DNA of 36,189 nt from a virus. Under the pieces are notes generated by a model. The model had not been told where the DNA came from, searched no databases, and saw only the letters and a list, made by a program, of their open reading frames with translations. Positions 15,797 to 35,986 of the stretch are shown one piece after another. The stretch is from positions 1 through 36,189 of IMG/VR virus record IMGVR_UViG_3300042691_016040; one strand, 5' to 3'. Within the stretch, counting starts at the first letter, position 1. Each line of letters opens with the position of its first letter. The position numbers and the translations under genes were made by a program.

Positions 15797-16230
15797 ATGG
15801 CGGATTTTCTTATAAAGAAAGAAATAATGTCGTAAATATAGCGGAAGTATTATTTGAAAGGTATTGTCAGTCAAAAGGATACTTTTATAGGCGATTAGGA
15901 TTTGATGAAAAAAACGATCCAATTCCTAACTTTTACAATCTTAATCCTTTAATTAGAAACCTTCCTGATTTTTATATTAATAACAAAGGTGTTGCTGGAT
16001 TAGTAATGGTTAAAGGAACTGCTAACATAAAAGCAAGTGAAATTAAATTACTACCTCATTTTTTAGAATGGTTTGATTCAAAAGAATGTCCTTTAATTTA
16101 TGCTTTTTGTTTTAAGGATCATAAACCTTTAATGCTATATCCTGAAAAAATAATAGAGCTTTATGAAAAATCAACCGATCAACAATGGCCTGATGGCGTA
16201 ACTTATAGGAACTTAAATTTAAATGGATAG
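15793..16230 (+). CDS. PD-(D/E)XK-like protein with altered active site
   Basis: The 145-residue protein has LPDFYINNKGVAGLVMVKGT, which aligns by eye with the PD...ExK core of restriction-like nucleases: D59 is present and K74 is in place, but the expected Glu is Met72. The rest (LLPHFLEWFDSKECPLIYAF) looks like the conserved alpha/beta part. It may be an inactive nuclease or a structural partner of the ERF/YqaJ system. The fold call rests on this motif only. Confidence 0.55.
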   Translation: MNGGFSYKERNNVVNIAEVLFERYCQSKGYFYRRLGFDEKNDPIPNFYNLNPLIRNLPDFYINNKGVAGLVMVKGTANIKASEIKLLPHFLEWFDSKECPLIYAFCFKDHKPLMLYPEKIIELYEKSTDQQWPDGVTYRNLNLNG

Positions 16231-16900
16231 AATAATAAGAGGTATAGAGCAAGGCAGTCCCGAATGGATGTCTTTAAGAATAGGCCGCATAGGCGGTAGC
16301 CGCATAGCTGATCTTTTAACTGAAGGCAGATCAGGTGGCGAATCTTTAACTCGTAGAAAATATAAGAATGAATTAATTAGGGAAAGGCTAACAGGCAAAA
16401 AATTAGAAACTTATAAAACGCCTGCGATGCAACGAGGAATAGATTTAGAGCCAATGGCTAGGGCATGGTATGAAGTTAAATATAATACCTTTGTGGATCA
16501 AGTGGCCATTGTTAAACACCCTACTATTGAAGGTGGCCAATGCTCGCCTGACGGATTAGTTGATGCTACTAATTCTTTGATCGAAGTCAAAATACCCAAT
16601 CCCGAGAACCACTTGGACAACATCCTTACAGGTGGCAAACAGTTAGAACAATATTATGATCAGGTTATGTGGCAATTAGCTTGCGTGCCTGGCTCTAATG
16701 GAAATGAAAAAAGAGAATTTTGCGACCTTGTATCTTATGATCCCGATATGCCTGATCATTTACAAGGGTTCGTAAAGCGTATTTATCGAGATGATGAATA
16801 TATTAAAAATACAATGGAAACTGCGGTGATCGCGTTTTTATCTGAAATTGAAACTATCGTAAACAACTTAAAGGAAATACAAAATGGCAATAACCCATGA
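16223..16900 (+). CDS. YqaJ-family (lambda exonuclease-like) recombination nuclease
   Basis: The 225-residue protein has the YqaJ pattern: QGSPEWMSLRIGRIGGSRIA near the N-terminus, MQRGIDLEPMARAWYE with E76, CSPDGLVD with D110, and LIEVKIPNP with E121 and K123, ending the active site. Such enzymes resect 5' strands and load the annealing protein. It overlaps the upstream nuclease-like gene by eight bases and the SSB-like gene by 17. Confidence 0.93.
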   Translation: MDRIIRGIEQGSPEWMSLRIGRIGGSRIADLLTEGRSGGESLTRRKYKNELIRERLTGKKLETYKTPAMQRGIDLEPMARAWYEVKYNTFVDQVAIVKHPTIEGGQCSPDGLVDATNSLIEVKIPNPENHLDNILTGGKQLEQYYDQVMWQLACVPGSNGNEKREFCDLVSYDPDMPDHLQGFVKRIYRDDEYIKNTMETAVIAFLSEIETIVNNLKEIQNGNNP

Positions 16901-17120
16901 TCTAATCGCTAAAACAGGCGAGTATGTAAACAAAGAAGGCGAAACAAAAGCTCGCTGGACTAAAGTTGGAGTTGCAATGTCTAATAAACAAGGCGGCACT
17001 TCACTTCTCATAGAATCTATCCCTGTCAATTTTGACGGCTGGGTAACAATGAGAGAACCGCAACCTAAAGATGGTGCAGGATCAAATACAAGTGCAACTG
17101 ATTCAGCAATGCCATTTTAA
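16884..17120 (+). CDS. Short SSB-like protein
   Basis: The 78-residue protein has an OB-fold-like beta pattern (KTGEYVNKEGETKARWTKVG, SLLIESIPVNFDGWV) and ends in a Ser/Asp/Thr-rich linker with the tip DSAMPF, resembling the acidic D-x-x-P-F tip of bacterial SSB that recruits partner proteins. It is shorter than ordinary SSB. Position after ERF and YqaJ supports single-strand DNA binding. Good ribosome site AAAGGAAA. Confidence 0.6.
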   Translation: MAITHDLIAKTGEYVNKEGETKARWTKVGVAMSNKQGGTSLLIESIPVNFDGWVTMREPQPKDGAGSNTSATDSAMPF

Positions 17121-17165
17121 TGATTTTACTGATGGTTTTGTATCGCAAAAAGCCCATAATTTGCA

Positions 17166-17187
17166 TAACAAGTAATTTTGCTTGTTA
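17166..17187 (+). promoter_or_regulatory. Hairpin in the pqqA leader
   Basis: TAACAAG (17166-17172) and CTTGTTA (17181-17187) form a perfect seven-base dyad with an eight-base loop, directly upstream of the pqqA ribosome site (AAAGGAT). No T-run follows, so it is not a normal terminator. It may modulate translation, protect a processed mRNA 5' end, or bind a protein. Confidence 0.4.
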
Positions 17188-17206
17188 CAGATAAAGGATA
17201 AATACT

Positions 17207-17278
17207 ATGTGGACTACACCATCAGCTCAAGAAATGAGATTTGGCTTTGAAGTAACGATGTATGTAATGAATAAATAA
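17207..17278 (+). CDS. pqqA: PqqA, precursor peptide of pyrroloquinoline quinone (PQQ)
   Basis: This 23-codon ORF starts at ATG 17207 eight bases after AAGGAT. The peptide has W2, P5, R11, G13 and the block G13-F-E15-V-T-x-Y19. In known PqqA peptides (for example the 23-residue Klebsiella one) Glu15 and Tyr19 are the residues that are cross-linked by PqqE to make PQQ, and both are present with the right spacing. Length, start MW and end also fit. No pqqB, C, D or E gene is in the window, so the product would feed the host pathway. It is the last gene of the rightward unit and is followed by a terminator. Confidence 0.88.
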   Translation: MWTTPSAQEMRFGFEVTMYVMNK

Positions 17279-17301
17279 GTTATACAAAAATATAACTTTT
17301 T
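17277..17301 (+). terminator. AT-rich hairpin with T-run overlapping the pqqA stop
   Basis: AAGTTATA (17277-17284) and TATAACTT (17291-17298) form a perfect eight-base dyad with loop CAAAAA, continuing into T residues. The stem has almost no G-C pairs, so it is weak as a terminator; it may instead be a 3' stabilising structure on the pqqA mRNA. Confidence 0.35.
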
Positions 17302-17348
17302 ATAGGTGAATAGCGTTCTTCAGAAAATCGGTATTTACCAATAATTAA

Positions 17349-17371
17349 GGGGCTTAAAATGCCCCTTTTTT
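17349..17371 (+). terminator. Rho-independent terminator of the rightward unit
   Basis: GGGGC (17349-17353) pairs with GCCCC (17361-17365) across a seven-base loop, and six T residues follow directly. It lies 71 bases after pqqA, with no gene in between. On the opposite strand the tail is TTAATTATT, so it may also weakly end leftward transcription. Confidence 0.85.
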
Positions 17372-17433
17372 ATCGTGTGTATAGTGTGTATTATTTAACG
17401 AATCCCATTAAACACAAGGGATTTAACGCAAAC

Positions 17434-17560: not shown

Positions 17561-17773
17561 TCATTTAATGTAGTGATCGCCCGTATTGTTATTAAGACCA
17601 ATCATATCAGCCTTATCTTGATCCCATGATGTTGTTTCATCGGAATCATAATAGCGTTCTTCATAAAGCTTATTCTTTTTATTACCCCAAATCTTTTCGT
17701 AGTTCTCATCATACAAGCTTTTTTGTTTAAGTTTATTAGTTGATCCTTTACCAGCTTCCGAATATTTACTCAT
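17561..17773 (-). CDS. Small hypothetical phage protein (MSKYSEAGKGS type)
   Basis: The 70-residue protein starts MSKYSEAGKGSTNKLKQKSL and continues with YDENYEKIWG and an acidic C-terminus. Small proteins starting with a similar Y-S-E-A-G-K-G-S motif recur in phages, with no known function to me. It is the last gene of the leftward unit and overlaps the HNH gene by eight bases. Confidence 0.7.
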   Translation of the reverse strand: MSKYSEAGKGSTNKLKQKSLYDENYEKIWGNKKNKLYEERYYDSDETTSWDQDKADMIGLNNNTGDHYIK

Positions 17774-33914: not shown

Positions 33915-34259
33915 CTATACATCTACACTTGGTTTGTTAAAGTAACATATTAAAGTTACACTCATTCTATCATTAGATATACTAGAATCAGCTATTCGCC
34001 AATCAACATTTTGATAAGTTATTGAATATAAATTATCGTTATCTACTATATCTCTAGTATATGGTGTGTAATTAAATTTCATTTGCACCAAATCACTATA
34101 TATTCTAAATTTTTCTGAAGTGGCCACATTAGCTCTTACTTCAGATATTAATGGCCTGCTTGTAAATTTAACAGTTTTAGTTGTTTGTGTTTCACCATAA
34201 CTGCTTGTGGCAAAAGACAAGTTATTAACTTCTACTGTTTCAAATTTTGTTATTGCCAT
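33915..34259 (-). CDS. Head-closure (stopper) protein
   Basis: The 114-residue protein (SFATSSYGETQTTKTVKFTS, SEKFRIYSDLVQMKFNYTPY, VDWRIADSSISNDRMSVTLI) is of the head-tail joining type that closes the portal after packaging. Start and stop lie one base from its neighbours, as often in this module. Confidence 0.75.
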   Translation of the reverse strand: MAITKFETVEVNNLSFATSSYGETQTTKTVKFTSRPLISEVRANVATSEKFRIYSDLVQMKFNYTPYTRDIVDNDNLYSITYQNVDWRIADSSISNDRMSVTLICYFNKPSVDV

Positions 34260-34925
34260 TTACATTACCAATGGTTTATAAGGTCTTAATAAACAATCCA
34301 CTCCATAAGGAATTTTTTGCAATCCACCTGCTACTGATTCTGATCTATTATTATAAAGATGAGTAAATAACAATAAACCAGCTTGCTTAATTATAGGATA
34401 AGCCTGTGTAAAGTTTGCATTTTGTGTATATTCAACAATAATAGGGCTTGTTCTATAAGTGCTTACATCCGATGGAATGCCACTATTTAATACAACTTTA
34501 TTTCCAGTCGAATCATAATAATAACTACTTGAAGCAATAGTTGTTAGAACGCTTGGCGTGCTTCCATTGTAATAAGCAACTTTTGTTATGCTTAAATTAC
34601 CGCTATTAAACTTATCAACATAACTTGTAACTGGCAAATCTAAATAAACAGGCGTTGAAAAATTAGCTGATAAGCCATAATAAACCCTATATGATGTAGG
34701 GAAGATTGACATACCAAGATAATCTTCAATATGCATGCGAACTGCTAATTCTAAACTTTCTAAATACGCATCTTGCGATTCATCAGTTCCTAAATTTAAC
34801 TGTTGCGCTATTTCATCTAATGTTAGCCAGTTTGTAGTTAAGTCGCGACTAATCTGTTCAAACTTATCATAGTTGAACGGATTGCGAGTAGTTCCATACG
34901 GCACTTGCCCAAGCGTGTCGCTCAT
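34260..34925 (-). CDS. Head-tail connector protein (HK97 gp6-like adaptor)
   Basis: The 221-residue protein has LTLDEIAQQLNLGTDESQDA, then ESLELAVRMHIEDYLG and the C-terminal IKQAGLLLFTHLYNNRSESV, with IPYGVDCLLRPYKPLV at the end. This is the helical pattern of gp6-like adaptors that dock on the portal. It directly follows capsid gene 2. Confidence 0.87.
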   Translation of the reverse strand: MSDTLGQVPYGTTRNPFNYDKFEQISRDLTTNWLTLDEIAQQLNLGTDESQDAYLESLELAVRMHIEDYLGMSIFPTSYRVYYGLSANFSTPVYLDLPVTSYVDKFNSGNLSITKVAYYNGSTPSVLTTIASSSYYYDSTGNKVVLNSGIPSDVSTYRTSPIIVEYTQNANFTQAYPIIKQAGLLLFTHLYNNRSESVAGGLQKIPYGVDCLLRPYKPLVM

Positions 34926-34927
34926 TA

Positions 34928-35986
34928 TTAAGCCCCTACTAAAAATACGCCTGCAAAAGGATTTCTAACAGTTGATGCTAATCGTTTTTCTGCAAATAAA
35001 GTTATAAAGCCAGGTGCAGTTTGATCAAAGCGTTTAATATTCATTTCCTCTGCATCAGCAATAGTTAAGAATTGATCCCAGTTTGCTAACACACCTGAAA
35101 TTTTACCTGCGGCTGGAGCGTCTAAATACGGATTAACAATTACAGGGAATCCGAATAAATAAACTAATGATCCGCCATCTTCCGTTCCCGTTTCAACAAA
35201 CATTGGAGCGCCACCTGTTGATCCTTTTAATTTTCTTAATTGAGAAATTAAAGCAGGATGTAAATGCCATGCAGTTGTAGGTAATGCCCAATATTGACCG
35301 GGCAATAAATTGGCCGCATTAACAATATCGTCATAAGTAATCGCTGAAGCTGAAAACTCTTCTTTTAAAATAGTATGAATACCATTAGTTATAGCAGTTC
35401 CGCTTGAGCCATAAGATGCGGCTGAAGTGCTTGTGTTATAAACAACCAAACCTCGCAAACCATCAGTTCCGCCAGTTGTTGTTGTTGTTGATCCTGCTTG
35501 ATCGTTGTTAATAGCCATTGACTGCGCTTCTAGCGATGATAGCTCAAGCATTAAATCGTTAGAGATAGCTGGATCGATACCATTAATATCATCCATAACG
35601 GCAGTTCTAATTGGTAATTGTGCAGTAATAACTCTAGTGGGTAATTGCCATATTGATGTTGCAATATTTGGGCTACCACTATTGGCAGTTACAGGATATG
35701 TAAAAGGGTTTGTTGCGTCTGCGGCATTACCTGTTTTAGCAACAAATTGAGCGGCTGATCCTGTGTATGTAACTTGACGGCTTCCCATTCTAAATGGGTT
35801 TGCATATCTTAAAGCGGCAAAAGCGTCATCAAAATAAACTCGACCACCAATATTTAAACCTGATCCTGTTAGCGTTGATGCTTCTTCTACATCTTTGGTC
35901 TTATTGTTATCAGTAAAATTAACTGTAGCTTGACCTTCAGTTAAAGCCTGTTTAATGCCATTTAAAATTTTTTCAGATGTATTCAT
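34928..35986 (-). CDS. Major capsid protein 2, HK97 fold without scaffold region
   Basis: The 352-residue protein aligns along its length with capsid protein 1: STLTGSGLNIGGR, SIWQLPT, LPIRTAVMDDINGID, GTDGLRGLVVY and FAEKRLASTVRNPFAG all have counterparts. It lacks about 55-60 N-terminal residues of the coiled-coil delta region and is not preceded by its own protease. The two genes are tandem, separated by a terminator. It may be a minor or alternative shell subunit (compare T4 gp23 and gp24) or the remnant of a gene duplication. Confidence 0.92.
   Translation of the reverse strand: MNTSEKILNGIKQALTEGQATVNFTDNNKTKDVEEASTLTGSGLNIGGRVYFDDAFAALRYANPFRMGSRQVTYTGSAAQFVAKTGNAADATNPFTYPVTANSGSPNIATSIWQLPTRVITAQLPIRTAVMDDINGIDPAISNDLMLELSSLEAQSMAINNDQAGSTTTTTGGTDGLRGLVVYNTSTSAASYGSSGTAITNGIHTILKEEFSASAITYDDIVNAANLLPGQYWALPTTAWHLHPALISQLRKLKGSTGGAPMFVETGTEDGGSLVYLFGFPVIVNPYLDAPAAGKISGVLANWDQFLTIADAEEMNIKRFDQTAPGFITLFAEKRLASTVRNPFAGVFLVGA

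Follow-up and report, generated by a model that had tools for sequence, protein, structure and literature searches.

A lone pqqA gene in a methylophage, conserved among phages as a likely source of PQQ precursor for the host

The viral DNA analysed here (36,189 nt, IMG/VR record IMGVR_UViG_3300042691_016040, referred to throughout as the window) carries an intact pqqA, the gene for the ribosomal precursor peptide of the cofactor PQQ, without the other genes of the pathway. Relatives of this gene, under purifying selection, occur in phages of many unrelated types. We consider it likely that the phage supplies PqqA for processing by host PqqB-E, which would sustain methanol oxidation during infection; expression, processing, maintenance of methanol dehydrogenase and the benefit under host shut-off are inferred.

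Results

A PqqA Family Member in a Phage Genome

The open reading frame (ORF) at 17207–17278 comprises 23 codons and a TAA stop, with the codons for Glu15 and Tyr19 at 17249–17251 and 17261–17263, respectively. PqqA peptides are encoded by short free-standing ORFs (about 22–29 residues) and contain a Glu-x-x-x-Tyr pair in a G-F-E-V-T-x-Y core; the window ORF meets the first description (23 residues, with a Shine-Dalgarno [SD] sequence and a stop) and its product the second. A preliminary description, made from the sequence alone, had proposed a 23-codon pqqA here with Trp2, Pro5, Arg11 and Gly13-Phe-Glu15-Val-Thr-x-Tyr19, and had suggested a PF08042 search; the translation contains every one of these residues (x being Met), and the search, once run, confirmed the similarity. 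The scores against Pfam PF08042 (40.3 bits, cut-off 21.1, E=3e-10) and the NCBIfam equivalog TIGR02107 (37.2 bits, cut-off 20, E=1.8e-9) exceed both curated cut-offs and show the product to be a true member of the PqqA family, the only PF08042 match across the 36,189-bp record. A chance ORF is ruled out by these profile scores together with hundreds of conserved relatives. A PDB sequence search with the peptide gave no match. That the peptide serves as a PqqE/PqqD cross-linking substrate and is converted to PQQ is inferred, there being no biochemistry. The features of the region are as follows.

16223–16900 (+), RecE/YqaJ-type exonuclease of the upstream recombination module (phrog_149, 2.6e-38)
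16884–17120 (+), 78-residue protein of unknown function, the last larger plus-strand ORF before pqqA (phrog_37570 and phrog_18187, both of unknown function)
17155–17160 (+), −10-like hexamer CATAAT, read from the sequence; weak evidence for a promoter of pqqA's own
17166–17187 (+), inverted repeat TAACAAGTA-ATTT-TGCTTGTTA, which may be an operator or form a 5′ stem-loop in a short leader (fold about −8 kcal/mol)
17193–17198 (+), SD sequence AAAGGA, 8 nt 5′ of the ATG, read from the sequence
17207–17278 (+), pqqA, PQQ precursor peptide MWTTPSAQEMRFGFEVTMYVMNK, 23 residues (PF08042, TIGR02107, related phages)
17277–17298 (+), stem-loop region AGTTATAC/ATATAACT that overlaps the stop codon and extends beyond it (fold of 17276–17374)
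17305–17339 (+), conserved structured element GGTGAATA-GCGTTCTTCAGAAAATCGG-TATTTACC, with a 7–8-bp stem and a near-invariant 18–19-nt apex (47 records, covariation)
17347–17372 (+), intrinsic-terminator-like stem-loop AAGGGGC-TTAAAAT-GCCCCTT followed by T6, the putative end of the pqqA transcript

The record encodes terminase large subunit, portal, major head and tape-measure proteins and is thus a phage, and the closest relative of this siphovirus, P19250A (KX815270), was isolated on the methylotroph Methylophilaceae IMCC19250; the earlier claim that the gene is phage-borne held. Over 97% of the 5 kb compared around pqqA the two DNAs are 83% identical, and they share gene order, the pqqA site and the 3′ element, whereas the 60 nt upstream differ and pqqA is left without annotation in the P19250A GenBank record. 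In the window pqqA is intergenic, flanked by an upstream ORF that stops at 17120 and by a convergent one whose end is at 17561, with an Erf/exonuclease recombination module just 5′. As a separate observation, P19250A_0031 (L002:7046-7702), annotated as a diguanylate cyclase/phosphodiesterase, is the counterpart of the window exonuclease (phrog_149), and the public annotation appears to be wrong.

None of pqqB, C, D or E was found by tblastn with Acinetobacter queries in the window record or in 80 related viral loci; neither thus contains a complete pqqABCDE operon, and the earlier claim that the other pqq genes are absent held, extending to the related phage records.

The Gene Multiplied in the Host Lineage

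The commonest Methylophilaceae host PqqA, taken as the consensus, is MWTTPAATEMRFGFEVTMYVMNK, to which the window peptide is identical at 21/23 positions; the close similarity to Methylophilales PqqA that the preliminary description had proposed held. The two share length, Trp2, Arg11 and Gly13-Phe-Glu15-Val-Thr-Met-Tyr19, and differ in that Gln8 and Ser6 of the window peptide replace Thr and Ala; in some cases phage and host peptides are identical. Unlike the host gene, the window pqqA is phage-borne, probably has a leader and a terminator of its own and is not accompanied by pqqBCDE.

All 80 Methylophilaceae genomes surveyed contain pqqA, in 1–12 copies (median 4), and 38 of 274 genomes of the class have any pqqA, with a median of 2 copies among these. 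Six Methylophilaceae genomes examined have 3–12 pqqA and one or two pqqE over the cut-off, in keeping with the reported 3–12 pqqA and typically single copies of the remaining pqq genes (PMC4109929), and one methylotroph has been described with five differently expressed pqqA (PMC9851590). The gene carried by the phages is, as shown for copy number, the one that is multiplied in the host lineage. PqqA is consumed at one molecule per PQQ, PqqB-E being catalysts. At the upper extreme, Methylotenera mobilis 13 (G003) and G036 have 12 pqqA copies each, and the former has a second pqqE.

Selection on the Precursor Residues

Across 93 distinct viral pqqA sequences the pooled pN/pS is 0.081, and Glu15, Tyr19, Arg11, Gly13, Phe14, Val16 and Thr17 are invariant in 93/93. 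This set was chosen with patterns spanning the conserved core, which introduces ascertainment bias; since the patterns included the core, the scan was repeated with a DNA pattern of codons 1–10 only, which yielded a sample of the loci. All 118 loci so retrieved (107 distinct DNA sequences, 36 distinct peptides) encode exactly 23 residues and keep Glu15 and Tyr19, and Arg11-Gly13 is likewise kept in every one. Loss of Glu15 or Tyr19 in related phages had been named beforehand as grounds for rejecting the assignment, and the opposite was found. All identities and the pN/pS rest on a 23-codon gene. Conservation and the SD sequence provide strong evidence, albeit inferential, that the phage peptide is translated and bound to remain a substrate.

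Regarded as a phage auxiliary metabolic gene, pqqA satisfies the requirement for a host-type gene in a genuine phage genome and that for maintenance by selection across phages (pN/pS 0.081; 107 distinct sequences intact). Its expression in infection, with an altered host metabolism, is inferred in the absence of expression or metabolite data.

Distribution among Phages

Searching 50,697 phage records with the window peptide (tblastn) gave 12 matches. Nine are genomes of cultured Methylophilales/Methylophilaceae phages (P19250A, Venkman, MEP301, MEP401, MEP402 and, in four variants, Melnitz); the other three are an environmental podovirus and two records labelled as Acinetobacter “phage”. An Acinetobacter PqqA returned the same twelve records, so the choice of query does not explain the restriction to methylophages. 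The apparent non-methylotroph case, Acinetobacter “phage” MD-2021a (L008, CAKLQF020000010.1), was rejected, being a bacterial chromosomal contig with full pqqBCDE, ppk and fur and a mislabelled contaminant of phage collections; this assignment rests on the gene content of one of the two Acinetobacter records. The cultured Methylophilales phages MEP431-434 and Venkman EXVC038S, listed in the taxonomy, were not among the matches; they may be missing from the collection or lack pqqA, and the literature searched yielded nothing on them. The pqqA ORF is mostly without annotation in the GenBank relatives. Antisense “hypothetical” ORFs overlie pqqA in Melnitz and ctXG6705 (L006:4961-5056 and L007:2067-2195, both on the minus strand); these annotations are likely to be spurious.

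In IMG/VR, pqqA is found on at least 587 contigs. The gene occurs in P19250A/Venkman-type siphoviruses, MEP301, MEP401/402 (Zobellviridae), T4-like Melnitz and several more neighbourhoods, and the surroundings of 80 viral loci and the cultured phages represent many unrelated types; the orientation of pqqA relative to its neighbours varies, and these neighbours include genes for T4-type DNA polymerase, DnaB, major head protein and helicase. No viral locus examined has a second pqqA copy. Host contamination is ruled out for the IMG/VR loci examined, where phage hallmark genes flank pqqA and pqqB-E are not nearby. A plasmid search found pqqA only on chromosome-like or large Burkholderiales replicons.

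No pqqE above the cut-off was present in 79 pqqA-bearing whole phage records, two weak matches in large phage contigs proving to be other radical-SAM proteins, and one of the 79 encodes a PQQ dehydrogenase of its own. This 72-kb record (IMGVR_UViG_3300025120_009955, G147) combines pqqA (41887) with a complete PQQ methanol/ethanol dehydrogenase of 624 residues (33989–35863), about 6 kb away, and a formate-dehydrogenase-like gene (35943–38783).

Expression Signals and a Conserved 3′ RNA Element

An SD-like motif precedes pqqA in 68/68 distinct viral sequences, versus 43–52% of control ORF starts on the same contigs, and in 117/117 members of the independent set with enough upstream sequence; the control starts are mechanically called ORFs, which lowers their SD rate. 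A TATAAT-like hexamer (5/6 or better) is found in 69% of the 68 viral upstream regions versus 24–31% of controls, an excess explained in part by composition (72% A+T versus 67%), and 5′ folds with a minimum free energy (MFE) below −4 kcal/mol occur in 53% versus 26–27% of control starts. The upstream sequence with the inverted repeat at 17166–17187 is common to the window and one further locus (L013). Downstream, the 99 nt from the stop codon (17276–17374) fold with an MFE of −31 kcal/mol (z = −5.8 versus shuffles), and the terminator-like stem-loop starts 69 nt past the stop. These upstream signals and the terminator suggest that pqqA forms a small separate transcription unit; this is only inferred because the window promoter is weak by consensus, a two-hexamer consensus scan having flagged no promoter in the region of 17155–17160.

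The structured element between pqqA and the terminator (17305–17339) may also be written GGTGAATA-GCGTTCYTCAGAAAATCGG-TATTTACC. Its exact core pattern occurs in 45 IMG/VR contigs which, with P19250A and the window, give 47 records, a few of them perhaps near-duplicates. Every one has pqqA, with the element directly 3′ of the gene in 41 and on the strand opposite pqqA, 129–150 nt or ~1.95 kb away, in six. In a 13-variant alignment, changes on both sides occur at four or more pairs of the element stem or terminator (8/19 pairs over both), and the stem length shifts between 7 and 8 bp in a coordinated way; the alignment was fitted to few, related sequences, so the evidence from covariation is moderate. 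No Rfam family matches the element at gathering level, and its core, as an exact pattern, is absent from 120 Methylophilaceae genomes. The function of the element is unknown, a 3′-UTR stabiliser or a small RNA being possibilities. In two records (L182 and L189) it lies ~1.95 kb from pqqA, preceded by a TTGAGCC/GGCTCAA hairpin and followed by a terminator, and in this free-standing position resembles a small RNA gene.

Discussion

Proposed Substrate Supply to Host PQQ Biosynthesis

In the mechanism that we favour, pqqA would have been captured from a Methylophilales host and its small transcription unit, with a probable start of its own, a strong SD and a terminator (all inferred), would give rise to the peptide during infection. 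From established knowledge of the pathway, host PqqD and PqqE would bind the phage PqqA and cross-link Glu15 to Tyr19, a host protease, PqqB and PqqC would complete PQQ, and the cofactor would pass to the host PQQ-dependent methanol dehydrogenase. As host transcription drops, the PqqA peptide would be the first component to run out, and the phage copy would sustain methanol oxidation, and hence the supply of energy and C1 units, until lysis. The reason for carrying pqqA alone, we propose, is that each PQQ made costs one molecule of PqqA, the only component of the pathway so consumed, while the PqqB-E catalysts are already in the cell; the enzymes for PQQ are present in the hosts, with pqqE found in those checked. 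A parallel is psbA, which cyanophages carry for the short-lived protein D1; the two cases are alike in that the phage provides only the fast-consumed part of a host energy system and leaves the rest to host machinery; they are unlike in that psbA encodes a reaction-centre protein and pqqA the ribosomal precursor of a small-molecule cofactor.

Support for supply comes from family membership, identity to the host peptide, the conserved residues, the restriction to methylophages, the presence in unrelated phages and at unrelated sites, the host gene dosage, and the link to methanol dehydrogenase in G147 and in the Lake Baikal phage population VP_266 (PMC7678222). Against it, the hosts already have several pqqA, and the gain from one more hinges on shut-off or on limiting pqqA, neither of which has been shown; nor is there a transcript, peptide or PQQ measurement for these phages. 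Overexpression of pqqABCDE from the pqqA2 promoter in Methylovorus raised PQQ only modestly (PMC9851590). The cultivation medium of the OM43 strain H5P1 contains PQQ (PMC9004378), so a benefit of pqqA may stay hidden in culture.

Alternative Explanations

The preliminary description had offered two functions, supply and decoy, between which the evidence favours supply, with expression and any effect on PQQ inferred. As a decoy, non-productive PqqA would flood PqqD/PqqE and halt host PQQ synthesis and methanol oxidation. The substrate alone is phage-encoded, and too much peptide might conceivably block the pathway; however, a decoy would gain from lost cross-linked residues or altered flanks, whereas neither sequence set (118/118 and 93/93) shows any change at Glu15, Tyr19 or the core, phage and host peptides are sometimes identical, and phages with both methanol dehydrogenase and pqqA (G147; PMC7678222) suggest that methanol oxidation is promoted. 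We regard the decoy as unlikely because no conserved residue departs from a working substrate.

A second alternative concerns balance or timing: phage-made PQQ might serve another PQQ enzyme, redox protection or release after lysis, and not energy supply. The data do not say which PQQ enzyme gains, and a dehydrogenase of the phage's own is present in only 1/79 phage records. We nevertheless consider this reading improbable, since the hosts are methylotrophs, in which methanol dehydrogenase is, from established knowledge, the main PQQ enzyme, and the core genome of the Methylophilaceae includes XoxF and PQQ genes (PMC4109929).

A third possibility, that RNA is the selected feature, with the leader hairpin and 3′ element forming a small regulatory RNA and the peptide incidental, draws on the strong conservation of the 17305–17339 element and its covarying stem. 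It is very unlikely: the element lies within 190 nt downstream in only 37 of 207 distinct viral pqqA contexts, with the peptide kept in all, and the pN/pS of 0.081 reflects selection on the protein. Finally, a functionless host fragment captured by chance, which the many dispersed host copies would make easy, is all but excluded by a single intact copy in each of hundreds of contigs of unrelated phages, always of 23 residues, under purifying selection and with an SD in 100%, as useless genes are not retained in this way in streamlined phage genomes.

Relation to Previous Reports and Implications

An auxiliary metabolic role for phage pqqA has been proposed before: VP_266, with pqqA and methanol dehydrogenase, was reported in this light in 2020 (PMC7678222), and a 2026 study of reservoir sediments includes pqqA, pqqD and pqqE in a list of viral genes (PMC13188868). 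VP_266 and the window are alike in having pqqA in a predicted Methylophilaceae phage; the former, known from metagenomes, is T4-like and encodes a methanol dehydrogenase, whereas the window is a siphovirus with pqqA alone. The sharing of the gene by cultured methylophages was not noted in the 2020 report, and no relevant mention of PQQ or pqqA occurs in the publications that describe Melnitz, MEP401/402, MEP301 and Venkman. Within the open-access literature searched, the presence of pqqA in nine of nine matched cultured methylophage genomes across unrelated types appears to be new, as do its usual lone form, the proof that the precursor residues are under selection, and the RNA element that accompanies the gene. 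The preliminary description had missed the occurrence in all matched cultured Methylophilales phages, the prior phage pqqA report and the conserved 3′ RNA.

Methylophilales (OM43, LD28, Methylotenera) are major methanol consumers in marine and lake waters and have abundant phages. If substrate supply is correct, methanol oxidation would be sustained through infection instead of ceasing, and one of the commonest metabolic genes of these phages would be one that gene callers pass over because it is too short. On a bolder reading, lytic Methylophilales phages (siphoviruses, podoviruses, T4-like and larger) have almost all, and independently, kept pqqA as a hallmark: a single overlooked 23-codon gene shared by the viruses of an entire host guild, with a product consumed as a cofactor precursor and sometimes accompanied by a phage-specific structured RNA; we lean towards this view, though not by a wide margin. 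If it is true, the supply of ribosomal cofactor precursors would be a common bottleneck of infection. The pqqA case is a reason to search phage genomes again for ribosomal precursor peptides.

Observations on Larger Phage Records

The dehydrogenase-bearing record G147 (L211, L213-L216, L071) also has a phage RNR, a head maturation protease and curlin-like, DnaK-like and GroEL-like genes, and its formate-dehydrogenase-like product is a molybdoenzyme. An intact pqqA is also present in a contig of 356,312 bp (IMGVR_UViG_3300023174_000036, L237), which would represent a very large methylotroph phage if it is truly one virus.
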